37,935 bases of DNA from a virus: positions 1-37,935 of the IMG/VR virus record IMGVR_UViG_3300005538_000217. One strand, given 5' to 3'. Positions 483-37,935 of the stretch are shown piece after piece (the stretch's first letter is position 1; every line of letters starts with the position of its first letter). The translations under genes were made by a program, and so were the position numbers. The notes beneath the pieces are model-generated. The model did not search any database. It saw nothing but the letters and a program-made list of their open reading frames with translations, and was not told the origin of the DNA.

Positions 483-868
483 AAGCCAACGGCCAGGTCC
501 GGTGGATCACCATTGGCACTGTTTCACAGCGTTACATTTTCGACCGGGGCCGCGGCGGCAAAGGACTGGAAATAGATTGGCGCGGCCGTTGCGATTGGTG
601 CCAGCCCTTCAGTTTTTTCCGCTGGGACGATCTGTTTTGGGCCGTGCGCCGACGGCTGGAACTCGCCGGGCTGGGAATGGTGGCCATCGCCTCGTCCACC
701 AAACGCGATTGCGGCCAGGTTATTCTGCTGGCGCTGGTGTGCCGGCATCCGGTTGCGAAACAGCGTTGGAAGCGCGGACCATCTTCCCGAAATTTTCGCG
801 CCGCGTCTGCCGTGTTTGAAGAGCCGCTTGATATTGCTGCTGCTCCGCCGGAGACAGCGACTGCTTGA
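479..868 (+). CDS. Hypothetical protein, convergent with the giant virion gene
   Basis: A possible third gene of the left plus-strand operon, 129 residues with a GTG start that overlaps the KTSC stop by 4 nt (GTGA). The first 80 codons are GC-rich at the third position and encode a Trp/Cys-containing protein (Asp-Trp-Cys-Gln near residue 45, Phe-Phe-Arg-Trp-Asp-Asp near 52). The last 50 codons run antisense into the 3' end of the large minus-strand gene that stops at 720, so that tail is unusual. No family is recognised. Support is the overlap and codon use only. Confidence 0.42.
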   Translation: MKANGQVRWITIGTVSQRYIFDRGRGGKGLEIDWRGRCDWCQPFSFFRWDDLFWAVRRRLELAGLGMVAIASSTKRDCGQVILLALVCRHPVAKQRWKRGPSSRNFRAASAVFEEPLDIAAAPPETATA

Positions 869-3800
869 ACTGCAGCTCGCGCGCCGCGTTGCCGGTGAAC
901 GGCCGGTCCGCAAAGTGCCGCAAAAATCCCTCGTCCGTGTGCCCTTCGGCCCGGAGTGCGTTGTACTCTTTGCGCGCGCCGGCCACGTCGCCGGCATCGA
1001 GCAGATCATCCAGTTTGCGGTACTGCCCTTCCACGCGTGCCTCAGCGTCTCGGGCCTTCTGGTAGGATTGACCCGCGGGTCCGGAGTTGCGGTTGAACTT
1101 TGCCGCCGCGTCGTATAGCTGCGTCTCGGCCGAATATTTGCGGCTGCCAATTCCCGCCAGCGCCTGCGCGGCCTGTGAAACTTTTGTTTGCTCTCGCGCC
1201 GGCGCGCCCGGCGCAAACCCCTCAGCGCCCATCGGCAACAGCCATGATCCAAAATCTTTGGCCATAATTTCAGCCGCGCGCACGGCCCGGTTGTCGGTCT
1301 CGATCGGAACGCTTAGTCTCGATCCGGTCCGCCAGTCCCGTTGCACCAGTGCGTCGATCGCCATTTTTGGATACGGCCCCACACGCCCGGCCGCAAAGTC
1401 CACCGGGTCCTGAATCAAGTGCCCGTAATCACTCACCAGGAAACGCGCGCTGTAAGCCCGGTCGCCCAACACGACCTTGTCCCACAACCGAGGGTCCCAC
1501 ATTGGGTCGTGGTCCTTGCGAAAGATGGCATTGATCACCCGTGCACCCGTATAGACCAGCGCGGCCTGCGCCAGGATAAAATATCGCTGCTCCGCGTTGT
1601 AAGGTTTCAAGGCCTGCCCGAGCACCTTTAATCGCGACACCAGGAAATCCGGAGCCGTAAACAGCAGCCGGTTCACATCCATCAACGTTTTATTCCGCCC
1701 CAGCGCCGTCCACGCGAGTTTGTTTTGCTGTGCGCCAAAGGCTGCATTGGCCTGCTGCGCCGTCTGCTCATATACCTGCTCCTGCGAAATTTTGCCGCTG
1801 GCGATATCTCCGGCGTAACGCTCCAGGTTGGCGTGCAAAAACACTTTGGCGGTCTTCGCCTTCAGTGCTGGCATGTAGCTCTTGAAAAGAAAATCGCTCA
1901 ACCTGGTCATGACGTCGCCCAGCCCCGGCACCTTCGACCACAGGCCTCCGTGGCCCGCGAGTCCTTCCTCAAAGAGTTCCCGGCTGCCATCGAATCCGAG
2001 ATTCGTTCCGGCTCGCATCAGCCGCGCCAGTTCAGGATCTCGAGCGGGATCTAATTCAACTCCGCGCGTCGACGGCGAGAGTAATGCCAGACGTTCTCTT
2101 GACGGCAGCCCGGCAAAAGCGTGAAACATGGAGTGCTCGGCCAGAGTGGCCATGTGAAACGTTGCGCTGGCAAATTTCGATCCCTTCAAAAACACCGTGC
2201 TGTTCAATAGCGCATTGGTCACCTTGGCAAAATCACCTAGCGGACCGTCCGGATCACGCAGGATGGATTTGCCCAATTCGTTTTTCAAAAAGCTATAGTG
2301 GTCTGGGTGCACAAGGAAATCCCCGTTCACCAGGATCGGGTTTCCCTCCTCGCTCATGCCCGCAAATTTCCAGCCGCGCAATGCCCAATGGTCGATCGTG
2401 CGATATGGACGCCCGTCCGCCGTCAGCGCGTCTTTGGGTCTCCAGTTCGAATCCACGAAATAAGTCCGCTGTCCCACGTCGCGCGGCTCGATGCGCGCGC
2501 CGCCCGAGATCTGCACAATCGGCTTGCCGTCGGCCGCCTTGGCGTCCTTTAAATTTTTGATCACGCCGCGGTCCGCCAGGGCGTCGTGAAATTCCGCGTT
2601 GTAATGTCCGACCAGGTCGCCCACGTCGAGCGACACCGGGCTGCCGCCGGCCATAATGCCATCGAAATAACTCGGCACCGTCCGTTGCAGTGCGAAAAAT
2701 GGATCCCGCGGGTCAAGCTTCGCGCCAGGGTTGCGTGGTGTCTGTGGACGCTTCCATTGTGGATCTTCAGGATCAAACTCCCCTTCGTATTTCGGCTTCA
2801 CTTTCCACAACTGCGGCAGTCCGTATTCGGCCCGACCACGGTCGATCAGCCCCAGGCCTTGTCCGTCGGAAAGTTTTTGTTCGAAATCCAATTGCACGCG
2901 CCGCGCCAGCACTTTTTCTTTTTCAGTCAACCGCAGTGCGGTTTCCCAAATTTGCCGGTACCGCTCGGGCACCATGTCAGCCTGGCTGCGCAGCAACTGT
3001 TCGTCCCCGTGGGCGTCCAACCAGGCGCCGATCGCTTCACGCCGCATGCGTTGCGGCACCGCGTCGCGAATTTCCTGCACCCATTTGTGGGTCTCGAGCC
3101 CCGTCCACTGTTTTTCAAAAAACCAGTCCTTCATGAGTGAACGAAAATTGTCGTCCACCGGTGGCGATTTATATTGTGCCTTGAACGCCTCCCAGCCGGC
3201 GCGCAGTCGACCCCACGCATTGGCCAACTTATCCTTGCCGCGGTTGTAATCGTCGGCCAGCCGTTTAAACAGGTTAAGCCGGTCCTTGATCGGCACGCCT
3301 GGTGAATCCGCGCCATTAGCTTTTAACCAGGAAGTTAAATCGTCGAGCGTCCGGCCGCCCGGCAGCTCCTTCATCTGGCTTTTGAGGATTTCGCCCTTGG
3401 CCACCATTTCATCGTAGACCCGTTTTTTCAGGTCCTCCGGGATGCGTGGCAGTTCGCTGTCCATGATGGACTGCAGTTCGTCCACCAACTGGCGCGCGTG
3501 CAAGCCGTTCCCGGCCTGGTTGGCAATCTGCAAATCGTTCGTCAGCTTTTCCATCCGGCTGAAGACGTCGCGCACATAATCCGGATTCGTCACGCGCTCG
3601 CGCTCGAGGCCACGCGCCTCTTTCACCAGGCGATAGCGTTCGCTCCGCAGTTCCGGGGGCAATTTGTTACCCGGCCGTTTCTGTGTGGCGTTGATTTCGT
3701 CCAGCCGTTTGCCGATCGCTTCGCGCCGGGCTTCGATCTCGCTCAATGGCGTCTGGCCCTCTCCAGAGTGCATCGCTTTCAACAAAGTCACGTGCGCCTC

Positions 3801-6080
3801 GTCCGCGTCGAATCCCGGCAAATTCTGCTTCCTTAAAAACTCAACGCCTTCCTGGACCGCGGCCGCCAGGCGCCTGCCGCCCGCGTACGCCGCGCGCACA
3901 ACCTTCAGTGCCGAGTGGATCAATGTCTGTGTGGCCCACTTCGGAAACGCCATCCCGACTTCGCCCTCGCGCAACGGTTTTAGCGGATCTGTTTTCTCGA
4001 TCGCGTTGTTCAGCCAGTCCATCACCGGATCTTTCGTCCGCGGCGTTCCACTTTCCCCTTCCTGCGCCACCCGGTTTTTGAAAGTTCCTTTGGCGGTTGG
4101 CTGGGTGACGACGTCCTCTTTGCCGCGCTTGAATGTGCGGTTGTCGTACATGATTTCGGTGCCGCCCTCGACGCGCTGCGTGCCGTACTTGGCGCCGTCG
4201 TCCATGGTCACGCTCACAACATTCCCATCTTGATCAAATTCAAACTCGCGCACTTTGAACGGTGCGCCGCGGATCCTCAGCGTGTCGCCCGGTTGCAGAT
4301 CGTCGGCCACGATCGTGCGCTGGTTCACGCCCGGCCGGGAAACGTCACGCGCAAAAGCTGCGTCCCGTGTGGTTTGTTTTTTCTCGAGAGATTGTTGGGC
4401 TCGAAAACCCTTGCGCGCATTTGCGGCATCGTTGATGGCGTCCCCGAGTTGGTCGACCTGGCCCGGGTCGCCCTTGAATATTCCAGATTGGAATAATGCA
4501 TCGGCCGCCGTATCGGCTGGCTGGCCTCCGGTTTTGAAAATCTTGCGCGCCGCGCCGATCGGTTTCCAGTCGGGATTGGCTTCCTTGATCAGGGTCGGGT
4601 CGATGTGCCCGATGGTGCCCTCAACTTCGTCGATAATGTCGTGAGGGCGATAGTTCGTGTATGTCCCCGTACGCGAACCAGCCGCGCTGCGAGATGGAAT
4701 CTCACCACCTTCCACCGGGATTGTCTCGCTGACCTGTGTGGTCGCAAGAGGAGCGGCTTTTTCCGCTGGGGTGGATGTTGTCGGCGTTACCGACTCACCA
4801 GTGCCCCCGGTTTCAGTTTCGGGCGCGGCCGGGACTGTTTTCTCACCTTCAGCCGGCTCTGTCAATGTTGGTCCGAGCACCCGCTGTTTCAGGTCGAAAG
4901 CTTGCCGTTGGGTCAGATCCGGAAACGCCTGCACGATATCCAGGCTGCCGGCGTCCGGGTTCAGACGGATCCAGGATTCGGGGTCCAATGGGGGCGCCTC
5001 TTCCGGCATACTGTCTTTTTGAGCAGTACCTGCATCGTTTTGCTTCAAATTGGCTTCGGCCGGAGCAATTGTTCCGCTCTGCCCCTCTTCTGCCGCAGGC
5101 GCTTGCGCCTGTTTCCGTCTGAATTCGGCCAACATGTCCCGCCCAGGCATTCGCATCTGGTTGCCCTGTAACGCCGCCTGCAGGTCGGCCAAGGCACCTG
5201 GTGACGTGTCCGCCGCTGGCGCCTCATTGGCCGGTGCCGCTGGCACTGCGGCAGGTGCAGCACGGACTTCCGGGGTTTGTTCACTTGAGGGTCCCATTTC
5301 CCCAGGAGCGAGCGCGTGGGATGCTGAAAGCGTTCCGAAGCCCAGGTTCGCGATCCCCGCCGTGATCAGCCGTCCGATCTTTCCTTCATCGCGTTGTGCC
5401 GCCGGCTTGCTCAATTCGTCATGCAGCTGCTGGGCCTGCTCCGGCAGCTGGCTGAACATCTGTCCTGCAAACGTCGCCGAGACCGCCCTTTGTGCCGTTT
5501 CTGAAAGCGCCCCGGTGCCCAGTGTGGCGATGCCTAAAGGCGAAGTCAGCCCGCGCGCCAGGTCCCCGATTTCGTCGAGCGCTCCCGCGGCAGCCGTCTC
5601 GTGAAATTTCGGCGGCTGGAAATCCTGCTGGTCTTCCGTGTCAGGCGCCACCGTCATCGGCACGCCGCCGACCATCTCGACCGGGTGTGCCGTTTCCCGA
5701 TTGATCTCAGCCTGCGCTTCCTCAGGCGTGCGCTTCGGCGCTTCCGGCCAAAGGCCGCGATTCACAAAATCCCAGGCTGCACCCGCTTTGTCGGCCACTG
5801 CACTCATCTCGTCCGGATGAGTGAGCTGCTCAGACAGGTGTTGCTTGTCTTCCGGACTGACCTGCGCAAATCGGCTCTGCCATTGTGCAGTGGGAGATCC
5901 CGGAATGGGCTTTAGAAAATCAAGGTCGCTGCCCCCCACTCCAAACTCGTCATCGCTTAGCACTCTGGATTGTGCGGGAGCGGAGACGCCAAACTCCTCA
6001 TCGCTTAAAAGTTTCGGCGTCGGCGTATTGGTCTGTGGCGCTGCCACAACACCAAAATCGTCATCTGACAAAAGTGGCAT
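720..6080 (-). CDS. Giant virion or ejection protein (large polyvalent-protein type)
   Basis: A 1786-residue protein, the largest gene of the window and the last of the leftward structural module. The N-terminus carries three copies of a Leu-Ser-Asp-x-x-Phe-Gly-Val motif at residues 4-11, 25-32 and 41-48. Next come an Ala/Pro/Glu-rich disordered stretch (about 240-460), a charged helical middle (about 700-1050) and a C-terminal segment (about 1400-1700) with hydrophobic helices, including Thr-Ala-Pro-Asp-Phe-Leu-Val-Ser-Arg. That C-terminal segment resembles the ends of phage 'large polyvalent proteins' and internal ejection proteins of podoviruses. I infer a role in delivery into or through the host envelope; no catalytic motif is clear. 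It stops 2 bp after an Ala-Glu end, converging with a plus-strand ORF. Confidence 0.85.
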   Translation of the reverse strand: MPLLSDDDFGVVAAPQTNTPTPKLLSDEEFGVSAPAQSRVLSDDEFGVGGSDLDFLKPIPGSPTAQWQSRFAQVSPEDKQHLSEQLTHPDEMSAVADKAGAAWDFVNRGLWPEAPKRTPEEAQAEINRETAHPVEMVGGVPMTVAPDTEDQQDFQPPKFHETAAAGALDEIGDLARGLTSPLGIATLGTGALSETAQRAVSATFAGQMFSQLPEQAQQLHDELSKPAAQRDEGKIGRLITAGIANLGFGTLSASHALAPGEMGPSSEQTPEVRAAPAAVPAAPANEAPAADTSPGALADLQAALQGNQMRMPGRDMLAEFRRKQAQAPAAEEGQSGTIAPAEANLKQNDAGTAQKDSMPEEAPPLDPESWIRLNPDAGSLDIVQAFPDLTQRQAFDLKQRVLGPTLTEPAEGEKTVPAAPETETGGTGESVTPTTSTPAEKAAPLATTQVSETIPVEGGEIPSRSAAGSRTGTYTNYRPHDIIDEVEGTIGHIDPTLIKEANPDWKPIGAARKIFKTGGQPADTAADALFQSGIFKGDPGQVDQLGDAINDAANARKGFRAQQSLEKKQTTRDAAFARDVSRPGVNQRTIVADDLQPGDTLRIRGAPFKVREFEFDQDGNVVSVTMDDGAKYGTQRVEGGTEIMYDNRTFKRGKEDVVTQPTAKGTFKNRVAQEGESGTPRTKDPVMDWLNNAIEKTDPLKPLREGEVGMAFPKWATQTLIHSALKVVRAAYAGGRRLAAAVQEGVEFLRKQNLPGFDADEAHVTLLKAMHSGEGQTPLSEIEARREAIGKRLDEINATQKRPGNKLPPELRSERYRLVKEARGLERERVTNPDYVRDVFSRMEKLTNDLQIANQAGNGLHARQLVDELQSIMDSELPRIPEDLKKRVYDEMVAKGEILKSQMKELPGGRTLDDLTSWLKANGADSPGVPIKDRLNLFKRLADDYNRGKDKLANAWGRLRAGWEAFKAQYKSPPVDDNFRSLMKDWFFEKQWTGLETHKWVQEIRDAVPQRMRREAIGAWLDAHGDEQLLRSQADMVPERYRQIWETALRLTEKEKVLARRVQLDFEQKLSDGQGLGLIDRGRAEYGLPQLWKVKPKYEGEFDPEDPQWKRPQTPRNPGAKLDPRDPFFALQRTVPSYFDGIMAGGSPVSLDVGDLVGHYNAEFHDALADRGVIKNLKDAKAADGKPIVQISGGARIEPRDVGQRTYFVDSNWRPKDALTADGRPYRTIDHWALRGWKFAGMSEEGNPILVNGDFLVHPDHYSFLKNELGKSILRDPDGPLGDFAKVTNALLNSTVFLKGSKFASATFHMATLAEHSMFHAFAGLPSRERLALLSPSTRGVELDPARDPELARLMRAGTNLGFDGSRELFEEGLAGHGGLWSKVPGLGDVMTRLSDFLFKSYMPALKAKTAKVFLHANLERYAGDIASGKISQEQVYEQTAQQANAAFGAQQNKLAWTALGRNKTLMDVNRLLFTAPDFLVSRLKVLGQALKPYNAEQRYFILAQAALVYTGARVINAIFRKDHDPMWDPRLWDKVVLGDRAYSARFLVSDYGHLIQDPVDFAAGRVGPYPKMAIDALVQRDWRTGSRLSVPIETDNRAVRAAEIMAKDFGSWLLPMGAEGFAPGAPAREQTKVSQAAQALAGIGSRKYSAETQLYDAAAKFNRNSGPAGQSYQKARDAEARVEGQYRKLDDLLDAGDVAGARKEYNALRAEGHTDEGFLRHFADRPFTGNAARELQFKQSLSPAEQQQYQAALQTRQTRRENFGKMVRASNAVSQPDAGTPAPAE

Positions 6081-31698: not shown

Positions 31699-31992
31699 TT
31701 ATTCCTGGTCGAACACCCATTTGACCAGCTTGCCGTTTTCCAGAAGGAACCAATCGCCGCGCTCTTTGATGCCCTTGGCTGCGTATTCGAAAACCCTCCA
31801 GTGATAGCAGCAATAGCAGTAGCCAATGTCCGCTCTGCCATTTTTGTTTAGGTGGGCAAACCAGATTGGGTTACCGCACATTACACTCCAGCACTTCCCT
31901 TTTTTCCACGACGTAACAGAGCCCGCGGCCGGAAAAATCGCGACACTCTTACCCTGAACTGCTCGAACGAAAATGGGCTTGCCGGGAATCAC
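31699..31992 (-). CDS. Hypothetical Cys/Trp-rich protein
   Basis: A 97-residue protein with a GTG start overlapping the J-domain gene stop by 4 nt. Beta-rich, with CysTrpSerValMetCysGlyAsn, then TyrCysTyrCysCysTyrHisTrpArgVal. The Cys/His cluster could bind zinc. It ends LeuValLysTrpValPheAspGlnGlu. No family recognised. Confidence 0.65.
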   Translation of the reverse strand: MIPGKPIFVRAVQGKSVAIFPAAGSVTSWKKGKCWSVMCGNPIWFAHLNKNGRADIGYCYCCYHWRVFEYAAKGIKERGDWFLLENGKLVKWVFDQE

Positions 31993-32615
31993 GCCACGGC
32001 CTCCCCGCTACATTCCAGTTGAAACACCCTCCAAGCTTCTTGCACGCGATGAAACATCTCCACGTCGCCGCCCTTGTCGGGATGATGTTTGGCAACCAGC
32101 ACTCGATGCGCTTCCTTCACCTGGCTGGCGCTCGCATTGATCGGCACCCCCAAAACCTTCCACCATTGCAGCGCGCTGCTTTGACCCGGTGCCGGCAACG
32201 CCATGTAACCTCGAAACGCCTGTTCCACGGAACCCACACCCCAGCGTTCCTGGCCGCGGATGGATTCAACGTGTTTGACGATCGCCCAAATGTTGTCCTC
32301 CACGCGATCCCATTTGTCGCACGCGAGCGAAACCGGTTTGCCCTTCAACTCAAAATAAACCGCCGCACCCGGATCGGCCGGCTGGGCCTGTCCGCTGTAT
32401 GGCATCCCATCGATGCGCAACCCGACGTTGGTTGAAAGCACTTCCTTGCGCGCGCCCAGGCGCGAAAGTTCGGTCGCTAATCCACGGCGCGCCTCATCCA
32501 TCGAACGTTTGCGCGCCCCGTAAGAGATCGAACGCGTAAACGGGCTGCTCTTGCGGAACTTCGTCCGCGGCCAGCCTTCCGGCCAGGAAAGTGGAAAAGC
32601 GGTCTGTTCGCTCAT
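31989..32615 (-). CDS. J-domain (DnaJ-like) phage protein
   Basis: A 208-residue protein. The N-terminus has LeuSerTrpProGluGlyTrpProArgThr, which I recall from many phage and prophage J-proteins. The C-terminus (about 150-200) is a J domain with TrpTrpLysValLeuGlyVal and the HisProAsp catalytic triplet at 178-180. J domains stimulate DnaK/Hsp70 ATPase. In a phage replication region this may recruit host DnaK for complex remodelling, as in lambda replication; that is inference. Start by 4-nt overlap. Confidence 0.85.
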   Translation of the reverse strand: MSEQTAFPLSWPEGWPRTKFRKSSPFTRSISYGARKRSMDEARRGLATELSRLGARKEVLSTNVGLRIDGMPYSGQAQPADPGAAVYFELKGKPVSLACDKWDRVEDNIWAIVKHVESIRGQERWGVGSVEQAFRGYMALPAPGQSSALQWWKVLGVPINASASQVKEAHRVLVAKHHPDKGGDVEMFHRVQEAWRVFQLECSGEAVA

Positions 32616-33186: not shown

Positions 33187-33402
33187 TCATGCTCGTATCT
33201 CGCTCACCAGCCGCTCAAACTCCTCGAGCGTCCCTTCTTTTGGTTGCGTCTCGTTCACCGTCGCCACCAGCCACGCCGCCAGGTTCAACGCCTGGCCGCG
33301 CGAAATCATCTCACCCGGCTCCGGAGCGAGCATGATCCGCAGCGACCCGTTCCCTGCCGGTACCACCGAAAAATGATTGGCCGAATCCATGCGCGCGCTC
33401 AT
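33187..33402 (-). CDS. Small hypothetical protein
   Basis: A 71-residue protein with a beta N-terminus (AsnHisPheSerValValProAlaGlyAsnGlySerLeuArgIle) and a helix AlaLeuAsnLeuAlaAlaTrpLeuValAla, ending in a second helix. ATG overlaps the upstream stop by 4 nt. Similar short phage proteins exist, with unknown function. Confidence 0.65.
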   Translation of the reverse strand: MSARMDSANHFSVVPAGNGSLRIMLAPEPGEMISRGQALNLAAWLVATVNETQPKEGTLEEFERLVSEIRA

Positions 33403-34259
33403 GCCTCCTCCGGCTCCTTTGCCTGCGCCCTGGCTTCCAGCACCCGCGGCAAGTGTTCACGCAACCCTTCCTCAGCCCTGGCCTCGGCCGCCCTGGCCTT
33501 TTCAGCCTTGGCTTTTTCCAGCTCATCGGCGTGCTTCACCAGTTTCTCCAGAAACTTGATCGAGACCACCACCCCTGTCTGCGCCGACGCATCAAACTCT
33601 CCGATCACAGCCGCCAGCTTGCGCATTTCTGCCAGCGCCGGCGCCGCCTGCTCCCGGATCCGCTTCTCCCGCGTGGATAAATCCGGCAGGTCGATGGCCA
33701 CCGGCTCAGGGGCCTGCGGCGCGGCCGCTTCGCCGTTCAAGTTTGCCGGAGCTTTGGCTGCTTCCGCGGTGCTGGACTTTGGACTGGTCTTGGCCACCCG
33801 CCGTTTCACCACTTCGCGCACATGCGCCGCCGTGATCCTGCCCTCCGGCGCCGTCCCCACCACTTCCTCCCAGGCATCGCGCCATTCCGCCTCGGGCAAC
33901 TCCGCCAGCGGCCGGGCCTGGCTCTCCGTTGCCGGCAACGCCGCAAAATCATGGTCGATCAAAAAACTCACCACCTCGGCCGCCGCCCGAAGGTGCCGGG
34001 CGTAACGGTCCGTGATGTCCCATTCGCGCCGGCAATACTCCGCGAAGGTCAGGTACTTCTCCCGGTAAAGCTCCTGTCGGAAAATCCGCCGCAAGGCGTT
34101 CCCCACCGCAAAAAACCCATTGATGTTTTCGCGAATCAACGACTCGCACTCCAACAGCGTCGCCCGTTCGGAGACAGTTAAAATCGTTGGCGGGGCCACG
34201 GTGTGTGAATCCGCACCGGAAGGTGCCGCGTGTCTGGCAAGAAACATAGTTGTGCTCAT
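33399..34259 (-). CDS. Helical DNA-binding-like protein with coiled-coil tail
   Basis: A 286-residue protein. Residues 32-100 form an HTH-like helical region with ThrPheAlaGluTyrCysArgArgGluTrpAspIleThrAspArgTyrAlaArgHisLeu, like ParB/RepB-type or plasmid replication-linked domains. A Pro/Ala linker follows, then a long Lys/Ala/Glu coiled coil (about 195-286). A DNA-organising or partition-like role is possible but not shown. ATG 34259. Confidence 0.7.
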   Translation of the reverse strand: MSTTMFLARHAAPSGADSHTVAPPTILTVSERATLLECESLIRENINGFFAVGNALRRIFRQELYREKYLTFAEYCRREWDITDRYARHLRAAAEVVSFLIDHDFAALPATESQARPLAELPEAEWRDAWEEVVGTAPEGRITAAHVREVVKRRVAKTSPKSSTAEAAKAPANLNGEAAAPQAPEPVAIDLPDLSTREKRIREQAAPALAEMRKLAAVIGEFDASAQTGVVVSIKFLEKLVKHADELEKAKAEKARAAEARAEEGLREHLPRVLEARAQAKEPEEA

Positions 34260-36175: not shown

Positions 36176-36366
36176 ACGATGATCACTCCCTTGCGCCACT
36201 GGTCGAGCTGCTCAATCGCTCCAGCCAGCGAATCGCACCGCGCTGAATATTTCAGCACCGTCTGGTTCGGTTCGTCGCCGTGGCCCACGATGATCAACTT
36301 CCACGCATGGCCCCGGCGCTTGAGCGTGATCTTCACCACACCCTCGTCGTTGGGGAAAACATTCAC
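36172..36366 (-). CDS. Small hypothetical protein
   Basis: A 64-residue protein with a GTG start overlapping the upstream stop by 4 nt. Beta N-terminus (GlyValValLysIleThrLeuLysArgArgGlyHisAlaTrpLysLeuIleIleVal), then a short helix. The longer in-frame ORF to 36522 is rejected as a shadow of the upstream gene. Confidence 0.62.
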   Translation of the reverse strand: MNVFPNDEGVVKITLKRRGHAWKLIIVGHGDEPNQTVLKYSARCDSLAGAIEQLDQWRKGVIIV

Positions 36367-37097
36367 GCCGCCACCTCCTCCGCCAGCTCGCGTTGCCTGG
36401 CCAAAAACTTCAGGCGATATTCTTCCGCTTCCGGCTTGGGCAGCATCGATCCCGCCGGGTGATACCGCGTAGCGAACGTCTGGATGACTTTCCAATCCGC
36501 CTTCGCGTTTGCACGACGGCACAGCTGCAAAACTTCGATTTCCCGCTCTTCCGCGTAATTATGGTTGGCACCCCACTCCCAGCCAAAACTCGTGTTCTCT
36601 TCATCACGAATCTTTGTGATCTCCAAGCTCGCCAACCGCATGTCCTCCCCGTGCTCGGAGTTTATCCGGTCCGCGCCCGGCAAAAATGAAAGGCAGGACT
36701 TCGGCATCCAAGGGCGACCCGTCGTCGCGTCCAGCCACACGGCGCCGCGTTTCTCGCCTCCGGGAAATCGATACACCAGCCGCACATCGTGCGCGGTGAT
36801 CTTGCTCCCCGTTTCGAGCACCTGTTCACGGAAGAAGACAAACGCACAGCGCGCCTCAAAATCCCAGGGCGATGAACCGGTCCACAGACAACGCAAACTT
36901 CCCGAAAGCCTGGGATCATCCAACCATTCCAGGTCGTCCATCACCTCGTAGTGCGCCTGGAACTCCTCGAGCTTCGGGTTGATCGCCCGCGCGATGCGCA
37001 ACATCTGCGAGGGTAAAAAAGTCTCAATCTTGCAAGCCACCTCACGAATCAGGTCGTAGCCCTGGCGCGCTTTGGTCCGTCGTTTTGCAGTTTCCAT
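36363..37097 (-). CDS. Hypothetical protein, first gene of the long leftward operon
   Basis: A 244-residue protein starting MetGluThrAlaLysArgArgThrLys, with AAAGGA 9-10 nt upstream of the ATG. Helical N-terminus, then an alpha/beta middle (TrpAspPheGluAlaArgCysAlaPheValPhePheArgGlu) and a basic helical end. No catalytic motif is clear. It follows the RHH gene after a 144-bp gap with two inverted repeats. Confidence 0.7.
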   Translation of the reverse strand: METAKRRTKARQGYDLIREVACKIETFLPSQMLRIARAINPKLEEFQAHYEVMDDLEWLDDPRLSGSLRCLWTGSSPWDFEARCAFVFFREQVLETGSKITAHDVRLVYRFPGGEKRGAVWLDATTGRPWMPKSCLSFLPGADRINSEHGEDMRLASLEITKIRDEENTSFGWEWGANHNYAEEREIEVLQLCRRANAKADWKVIQTFATRYHPAGSMLPKPEAEEYRLKFLARQRELAEEVAA

Positions 37098-37241: not shown

Positions 37242-37436
37242 TCAGGCGGCTTCCTTCACCGCCGCACCCAGGCGCTTCTTAAGAACCGGCAAACCCGTGC
37301 GGGCAGCCATGCGAAGCACGTCCACCCAATCAAGTCCGCTCTGGTCAGCAATAGTCTGCAGGTCCTTTTCAATCTGGCTGGGAAAACGAACCTGGCGCGG
37401 TTTGCCCAATGGCTCTTTCGACGTTTTTGACTTCAT
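37242..37436 (-). CDS. Ribbon-helix-helix regulator, leftward
   Basis: A 64-residue protein. ArgGlnValArgPheProSerGlnIle is the ribbon strand, followed by two helices (IleGluLysAspLeuGlnThrIleAla, then TrpValAspValLeuArgMetAlaAla). This is the Arc/CopG-type fold that binds operators as dimers. It is homologous in layout to the divergent plus-strand gene (ProArgGlnIleArgLeuAspPro), which suggests a duplicated pair controlling the shared region. The promoter just upstream predicts an almost leaderless mRNA. Confidence 0.82.
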   Translation of the reverse strand: MKSKTSKEPLGKPRQVRFPSQIEKDLQTIADQSGLDWVDVLRMAARTGLPVLKKRLGAAVKEAA

Positions 37437-37443
37437 ACGTCGC

Positions 37444-37463
37444 TAATTGTAGTTAATTGTAGT
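37444..37463. promoter_or_regulatory. Tandem 10-bp direct repeat, likely RHH operator
   Basis: Two perfect adjacent copies of TAATTGTAGT. They overlap the -10 box and part of the spacer of the leftward promoter. RHH repressors bind short repeated sites at about one helical turn, so this is a natural operator for either RHH protein. Confidence 0.65.
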
Positions 37464-37473
37464 CGTCTGTCAA
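37446..37473 (-). promoter_or_regulatory. Leftward sigma70-type promoter
   Basis: TTGACA (37473-37468) and TACAAT (37451-37446) with a 16-bp spacer on the minus strand. Transcription would start about 3-4 bases before the ATG at 37436, so little or no leader and no Shine-Dalgarno site is present. Confidence 0.68.
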
Positions 37474-37488
37474 TATTTATTTTGACAG
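37467..37488. repeat. Inverted repeat holding both -35 boxes
   Basis: CTGTCAA and TTGACAG arms with an 8-bp AT-only centre. Each arm is the -35 element of one of the two divergent promoters. Confidence 0.65.
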
Positions 37489-37510
37489 CGCATTTCTGTG
37501 CGTGTGTAAT
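37482..37510 (+). promoter_or_regulatory. Rightward sigma70-type promoter
   Basis: TTGACA (37482-37487), a 17-bp spacer and TGTAAT (37505-37510). The ATG of the RHH gene is at 37518, 7 bp after the -10, so the transcript probably begins at or next to the start codon. Confidence 0.72.
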
Positions 37511-37517
37511 TGGGCCG

Positions 37518-37802
37518 ATGAAAAAACCACCTCGCCAGATTCGGCTAGATCCGGACATTCTTGAGGAGGTTCAGAAAATATCGGAAGTCACAAATCTCCC
37601 GCAGGTGGAAGTGATCCGGCAAATGGTGGCTGCCGGCGTCCGGGTGATCAAGCAGAACGGCTACAAGATTACATTACCACTCCGCCTCGAACTTGCGAAA
37701 GACGTCGAACTAAAAACAGAGCCACCCTCTCGCCATCCCACGAGAGTTTCCGGGGAAAGCCCACCGTCCCAATTCAACGAACCGAAAAAGAAAACCGGAT
37801 AA
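37518..37802 (+). CDS. Ribbon-helix-helix regulator, rightward
   Basis: A 94-residue protein. ArgGlnIleArgLeuAspPro is the ribbon strand, followed by IleLeuGluGluValGlnLysIleSer and ValGluValIleArgGlnMetValAla helices. The C-terminal 30 residues are a basic, Pro/Ser-rich tail not present in the leftward partner. ATG 37518 is preferred over a TTG at 37482 because that lies in the -35 box. It is likely the first gene of a rightward operon. Confidence 0.82.
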   Translation: MKKPPRQIRLDPDILEEVQKISEVTNLPQVEVIRQMVAAGVRVIKQNGYKITLPLRLELAKDVELKTEPPSRHPTRVSGESPPSQFNEPKKKTG

Positions 37803-37830: not shown

Positions 37831-37935
37831 ATGAATGCCCCCGCGAAAATAATACTGCTCGTTGGCCTTCTCGCCATCAGCATGGCGTGCGCGTTCCCGC
37901 CCTGGATCCTGACAGCCGATGCTGAGGGCGACGGG
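37831..37935 (+). CDS. Small membrane or exported protein, truncated by the window end
   Basis: The first 35 residues only: MetAsnAlaProAlaLysIleIleLeuLeuValGlyLeuLeuAlaIleSerMetAlaCysAla, then PheProProTrpIleLeu. A hydrophobic N-terminal segment followed by a Phe-Pro-Pro-Trp motif is seen in many small phage membrane proteins. The stop is not in the window. The frame would read on into the ORF at position 1 if the ends were joined. Confidence 0.6.
   Translation, partial: MNAPAKIILLVGLLAISMACAFPPWILTADAEGDG

Follow-up and report, generated by a model that had tools for sequence, protein, structure and literature searches.

A divergent RHH gene pair and a 10-bp-phased tandem repeat in a probable Verrucomicrobiota prophage: a candidate immunity-type switch with a layout that recurs across the phylum

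The Cro/CI switch of phage lambda consists of divergent repressor- and anti-repressor-like genes heading the lytic operon, with operators over the promoter and a third gene between the promoters. Its proteins are of the HTH type and use paired 17-bp palindromic operators, and cI is leaderless when transcribed from PRM. The immI region of phage P22 (record X01916) has two divergent RHH genes, mnt and arc, whose overlapping promoters lie in a common short intergenic region with an RHH operator between -10 and -35 of the ant-side promoter, and whose products share 48% identity over 40 aa. SD sites are annotated for both genes, the distance from -10 to start is 27 and 39 nt, and the cassette, which controls ant, lies in a moron of the late operon (PMC2629481). 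CopA(SO), an RHH protein of prophage CP4So, binds two 7-bp sites that are 3 bp apart (GTANTAC-N3-GTANTAC), i.e., with a 10-bp period (PMC8706911), and sits in a toxin-antitoxin operon with a ParE toxin. For Verrucomicrobiota prophages, we found no RHH lysogeny switch in the open-access literature.

The locus described here lies at the right end of a 37,935-bp stretch of DNA (the window), which is the minus strand of contig C117:2-37936 in a 3.1-Mb draft genome. Two small genes, one for a protein of 64 aa (RHH-L; 37242..37436, minus strand) and one for a protein of 94 aa (RHH-R; 37518..37802, plus strand), point away from each other, and 81 bp separate the leftward ATG at 37436 from the rightward ATG at 37518; the region that the first-pass annotation marked, 37434-37520, runs from ATG to ATG. 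As in P22 immI, a phage carries two divergent paralogous RHH genes with both promoters in the intergenic region, so a divergent switch made of two RHH genes is not new in kind. However, the promoters here stand back to back with adjacent -35 boxes instead of overlapping each other, the genes are SD-less and predicted to be nearly leaderless, and the main phage operon begins with RHH-L. No ant-like antirepressor was found 3′ of RHH-L, where the next gene has no family match. No BLASTP alignment was obtained in the pairs tested, RHH-R against Mnt and RHH-L against Arc. By sequence, the putative switch falls outside the Mnt/Arc family, and we liken it to a P22-immI or Cro/CI-type switch by analogy. 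It shares with lambda the divergent layout at the head of an operon and the placement of operator-like sites over a promoter, but has RHH in place of HTH proteins, 10-bp direct repeats in place of palindromes, and no third gene between the promoters. With CopA(SO), it shares a prophage RHH protein and the 10-bp period, whereas neither a toxin nor a single-operon layout was seen here.

The window is probably a prophage carried by an uncultured bacterium of the Verrucomicrobiota, because genes beyond its left end look host-like by eye and phage genes lie inside it. These include a major head protein gene (phrog_1357 match, 6e-18) and further phage-like leftward genes for an amidase or head closure protein, a holin, and Mu-Gam-like, terminase-like, and DnaJ-like proteins, and RHH-L is the first gene of this long leftward run. 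The gene after it (36363..37097, minus strand) encodes about 244 aa and received no functional assignment, with no match in Pfam, PHROGs, NCBIfam, or PADLOC. The contig ends 1 bp past the window, and its last complete gene, RHH-R, is followed by the start of a truncated gene that, by sequence reading, encodes a hydrophobic N-terminus (37831..37935, plus strand). Because the contig stops directly after RHH-R, neither an integrase nor the remainder of the immunity module is in view, and no integrase was identified among the genes of the window. A circular contig was considered and rejected, as terminal overlap was absent. The terminase-like protein has relatives at 62 to 64% identity in two viral contigs (L038 and L039), which showed no obvious RHH module in the stretches read and no match when searched with the protein encoded at 33399-34259 of the window. 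Two other phage proteins of the window may be mentioned: one of 1786 aa (720-6080, minus strand) without a Pfam or PHROG match other than a weak match to head closure, and a DnaJ-domain protein (31989-32615, minus strand) with relatives in Synechococcus, Erythrobacter, Caulobacter, Gordonia, and Microbacterium phages.

A consensus scan of the intergenic region agreed with the initial description of two near-consensus promoters standing back to back. The leftward promoter (minus strand) has TTGACA at 37468..37473 and, across a 16-bp spacer, TACAAT at 37446..37451, 9 nt from the ATG. The rightward promoter (plus strand) has TTGACA at 37482..37487 and, after a 17-bp spacer, TGTAAT at 37505..37510, 7 nt from the ATG. 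On both strands of the 37,935 bp, these were the only two with at least 11 of 12 consensus matches, and the score of either was reached in none of 200 dinucleotide shuffles; a stricter scan listed only the leftward one in the region, the rightward -10 having G instead of A at position 2. With the +1 set 7 nt beyond the end of the -10, the predicted leaders are about 3 nt (left) and about 1 nt (right), in line with the earlier proposal that the start sites fall at or near both ATGs, which thus holds as a prediction from the -10 distances. An in-frame TAG just 5′ of the leftward ATG makes ATG 37436 the earliest possible start of RHH-L.

The perfect 10-bp tandem that had been noticed on the leftward -10 was also found as described. 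The two copies of TAATTGTAGT, at 37444-37453 and 37454-37463, are exact with a period of 10 (shuffle p<1/300), and together (37444..37463, plus strand) they lie on the leftward -10 and spacer as a candidate RHH operator. Six direct repeats with at least 10 matches at periods of 6 to 15 occur in the whole window, and the TAATTGTAGT tandem alone has period 10. A TGTCA inside the leftward -35 (37468..37472, plus strand) keeps the exact 10-bp phase of the TGTAG copies at 37448-37452 and 37458-37462, which is suggestive of a possible third, weaker half-site. On the other hand, the inverted repeat thought to be shared by the two promoters stood only in part: CTGTCAA-8-TTGACAG is present (37467..37488), with its arms 8 bp apart, but 6 of the 7 arm bases belong to the -35 boxes, and such a repeat is expected from two back-to-back -35s (shuffle p=0.07). 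We therefore rejected it as an independent operator, treating it as a by-product of the promoter arrangement. TGTCA/TGACA was likewise dropped as a shared operator half-site, since the same letters make up the -35 box, and a test of repeat period was used instead.

That the two genes form a compact divergent pair of RHH paralogs, as first proposed, agrees with the protein comparisons, in which RHH-L and RHH-R were 33% identical over 42 aa (E=2e-7) and RHH-R matched Pfam RHH_1 exactly at the cutoff (E=4.5e-4, 20.5 bits). Pfam, AF2, and the relatives of RHH-R delineate an RHH domain followed by a tail with the motif NG..(I/L).LPL. The AF2 monomer model of RHH-R, built from 16 aligned sequences, has both RHH helices (residues 12-25 and 29-46) at a pLDDT of 94 to 97 in the core, with a disordered tail and the strand left unassigned, and its Foldseek neighbors included Arc, CopA(SO) (6iya and 7etr), NikR, and CopG, all with weak E-values. 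RHH-R is thus modeled with the RHH (MetJ/Arc/CopG) fold. RHH-L had no match above threshold in Pfam, PHROG, NCBIfam, or PADLOC; its single-sequence AF2 model has helices at 20-33 and 37-47 with moderate confidence (mean pLDDT of 72.6), and CopG was the top match, a weak one, in the fold search. From its open reading frame, its paralogy to RHH-R, and this lower-confidence model, it is an apparent RHH protein. A PDB sequence search gave no matches. At the nucleotide level, the two genes have a 15-nt stretch in common (87%) in inverted orientation. RHH-L is also related to an RHH antitoxin-like family, and by sequence its own family appears to overlap with antitoxins. The closest RHH-L relative in the order-level genomes (L010:1046-1656, genome G085) is encoded 5′ of a PemK/MazF-like toxin gene (Pfam E=6e-9).

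The arrangement is not unique to the window and recurs across the phylum. RHH-R relatives were present in 13 of 320 genomes of the order by a profile search and, by two profiles, in 9 and 16 of 388 genomes of the phylum. Neither viral contigs nor phage records gave a match in scans with RHH-R or RHH-L as single proteins or with profile A8; the sequences of alignment A2 had diverged too far to be used in pattern scans. All 19 loci compared have a small partner gene head to head with the RHH-R relative. The partner is an apparent RHH protein in 12 of them (the window, L023, L029, L030, L032, L033, L035, L036, L062, L063, L064, and L069), assigned by Pfam for L032, by Pfam below the cutoff for L036, and by sequence pattern for the others. 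It is HTH-like in the remaining 7 (L006, L007, L008, L020, L025, L027, and L028), an assignment made by Pfam HTH_17 near the cutoff for L020 and by similarity or without Pfam support for the others. Further divergent RHH-like genes at L061 and L155 lie outside this count. Phage genes neighboring several of the RHH-R relatives include an integrase at L007 (phrog_1, 1.3e-17), a DnaB-like helicase (1.2e-14), seen at L148 and L015, and a packaging ATPase (1.2e-23), seen at L148, L147, and L143. The module is not phage-specific, however, because the relatives at L032 and L033 adjoin a response-regulator-like gene in chromosomal surroundings with no phage gene seen. As an observation apart, RHH-R modules at L143, L145, L147, and L148 (genomes G089, G118, G021, and G128) stand at the head of elements that carry replication genes, a packaging ATPase (phrog_2666), or both, with no tail genes recognized nearby, and these elements are perhaps tailless dsDNA prophages of Verrucomicrobiota.

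The intergenic regions of these loci share a repeat spacing rather than a repeat sequence, the spacing being constant across loci and the sequence varying by locus. We took, for every period between 6 and 18, the best direct match of 10 nt in each of the 19 divergent regions and summed these values by period; the period-10 sum was 141 compared with 105.2±4.6 in shuffles (z=7.9), with the other periods from 7 to 18 below z=1.5 and period 6 at z=2.3. The excess was retained when the window was left out (131 versus 99.1, 0/400 shuffles) and when one locus per group was taken, also without the window (85 versus 66.9, 0/400 shuffles); three-copy arrays were enriched (z=8.2) at period 10 only. The signal was present both in the 7 loci with HTH-like partners, where RHH-R is the sole RHH protein (51 versus 36.9, 0/1000 shuffles), and in the 11 other RHH-RHH loci (80 versus 62.3, 0/1000 shuffles), which also gave z=2.7 at period 13. 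Three of the RHH-RHH loci (L063, L064, and L069) have a palindrome over the partner's -10 instead of clear 10-bp direct repeats. The controls for these values were shuffles and one host genome, whose 194 intergenic regions showed no period-10 excess, and the intergenic limits rest on guessed start codons. The host intergenic regions (G000 contigs L040-L055 and L102-L141) had a feature of their own, an excess of heptamer-type direct repeats at periods of 7 bp (z=9.2), 8 bp, and 14 bp.

The proposed operator role of the tandem is strengthened by this recurrence of the period-10 signal across related loci. Since the signal persists where RHH-R is the only RHH protein, the simplest reading of the sequences is that RHH-R would be the binder and the tandem in the window its operator. 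It is unlikely that RHH-L, and not RHH-R, binds the tandem and autorepresses the leftward operon in an antitoxin- or Arc-like style while RHH-R acts elsewhere: the 10-bp repeats are just as strong at loci with a non-RHH partner, and no recognizable toxin follows RHH-L, the 244-aa gene being without a match. Such autorepression would nevertheless fit the position of the tandem on RHH-L's own -10, the palindromes that overlap the -10 of the partner at several RHH-RHH loci, and the kinship of RHH-L with an antitoxin-like RHH family, one member of which precedes the PemK/MazF-like toxin gene at L010; the paralogy of RHH-L and RHH-R is also compatible with RHH-L binding the same tandem.

The P22 precedent raises another alternative, an accessory moron cassette that controls an antirepressor or superinfection factor, as mnt/arc controls ant (PMC2629481), and not the primary lysis-lysogeny switch. 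The other regulators of the prophage may indeed lie past the contig end, but RHH-L heads a long leftward run of phage genes, and in relatives the module heads replication/packaging genes or adjoins an integrase, which makes the accessory role improbable. That the locus is instead a type II toxin-antitoxin system or a CopG regulator of the plasmid type is very improbable, despite the RHH folds being typical of antitoxins and the sub-threshold matches (PrgO in NCBIfam for RHH-R and RelB-like in some relatives), as no toxin adjoins either gene, PADLOC and NCBIfam were negative at their cut-offs, and the locus has a phage context.

With moderate confidence, we thus favor the reading that the window holds a phage immunity-type switch in which RHH-R, on the tandem, shuts the leftward lytic promoter. 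RHH-R, the constant component of the family, would most likely be the immunity-type repressor. Its dimers would line up along a single face of the DNA on the 10-bp-phased TAATTGTAGT tandem, over the leftward -10 and spacer, and block the leftward promoter and with it the transcription of RHH-L and the phage operon. In turn RHH-L, as the first product of that operon, would most likely be a Cro- or Arc-like antagonist or autoregulator acting on the same region. Mutual interference may be added to this control, because the -35 boxes are 8 bp apart and polymerase at one promoter should exclude polymerase at the other. Both mRNAs would begin at the ATG or within about 3 nt of it, using the leaderless route common in the host. 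The combination of a constant RHH-R with an exchangeable partner suggests a repressor core whose antagonist is replaceable. More tentatively, these modules may represent an apparently undescribed, phylum-wide class of switch, defined by a tail-bearing RHH protein (NG..LPL), an exchangeable RHH or HTH-like partner, 10-bp-phased and locus-specific operators, and leaderless promoters, which tailed and apparently tailless prophages alike would use for immunity, with domesticated copies beside chromosomal response regulators. The locus may offer a concrete model for lysogeny control without a CI-type HTH repressor in phages of a mostly uncultured phylum, and the signature of an RHH protein with an LPL tail, a divergent small partner, and 10-bp repeats may help to find immunity modules where Verrucomicrobiota prophages are poorly annotated.

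Nearly leaderless genes are no special trait of the switch, since the SD-poor host has the same signature. In a survey of 660 kb of the host genome (G000 contigs L040-L055 and L102-L141), TANNNT occurred exactly 6 nt before the ATG in 25 of 492 genes, compared with 4.0 expected per position (p=1.6e-12). A second, lower peak stood 9 nt before the ATG (12 genes, p=9e-4), and SD cores preceded 14% of ATG genes compared with 8% in a control window. Consistent with this, some Verrucomicrobia are among the SD-scarce organisms in a published survey (PMC10783764). Because the host is SD-poor and has this TANNNT peak 6 nt before the ATG, near-leaderless genes are ordinary in the host lineage. Partner-side promoters with the -10 at 6 to 11 nt from the ATG were also found in the relatives L008, L032, L033, L063, and L064. 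At L030 (about position 1839, genome G390), the partner RHH gene apparently has ATA, right after the -10, where its L032 homolog has ATG, and it appears from the sequence to have a lost or unusual start codon.
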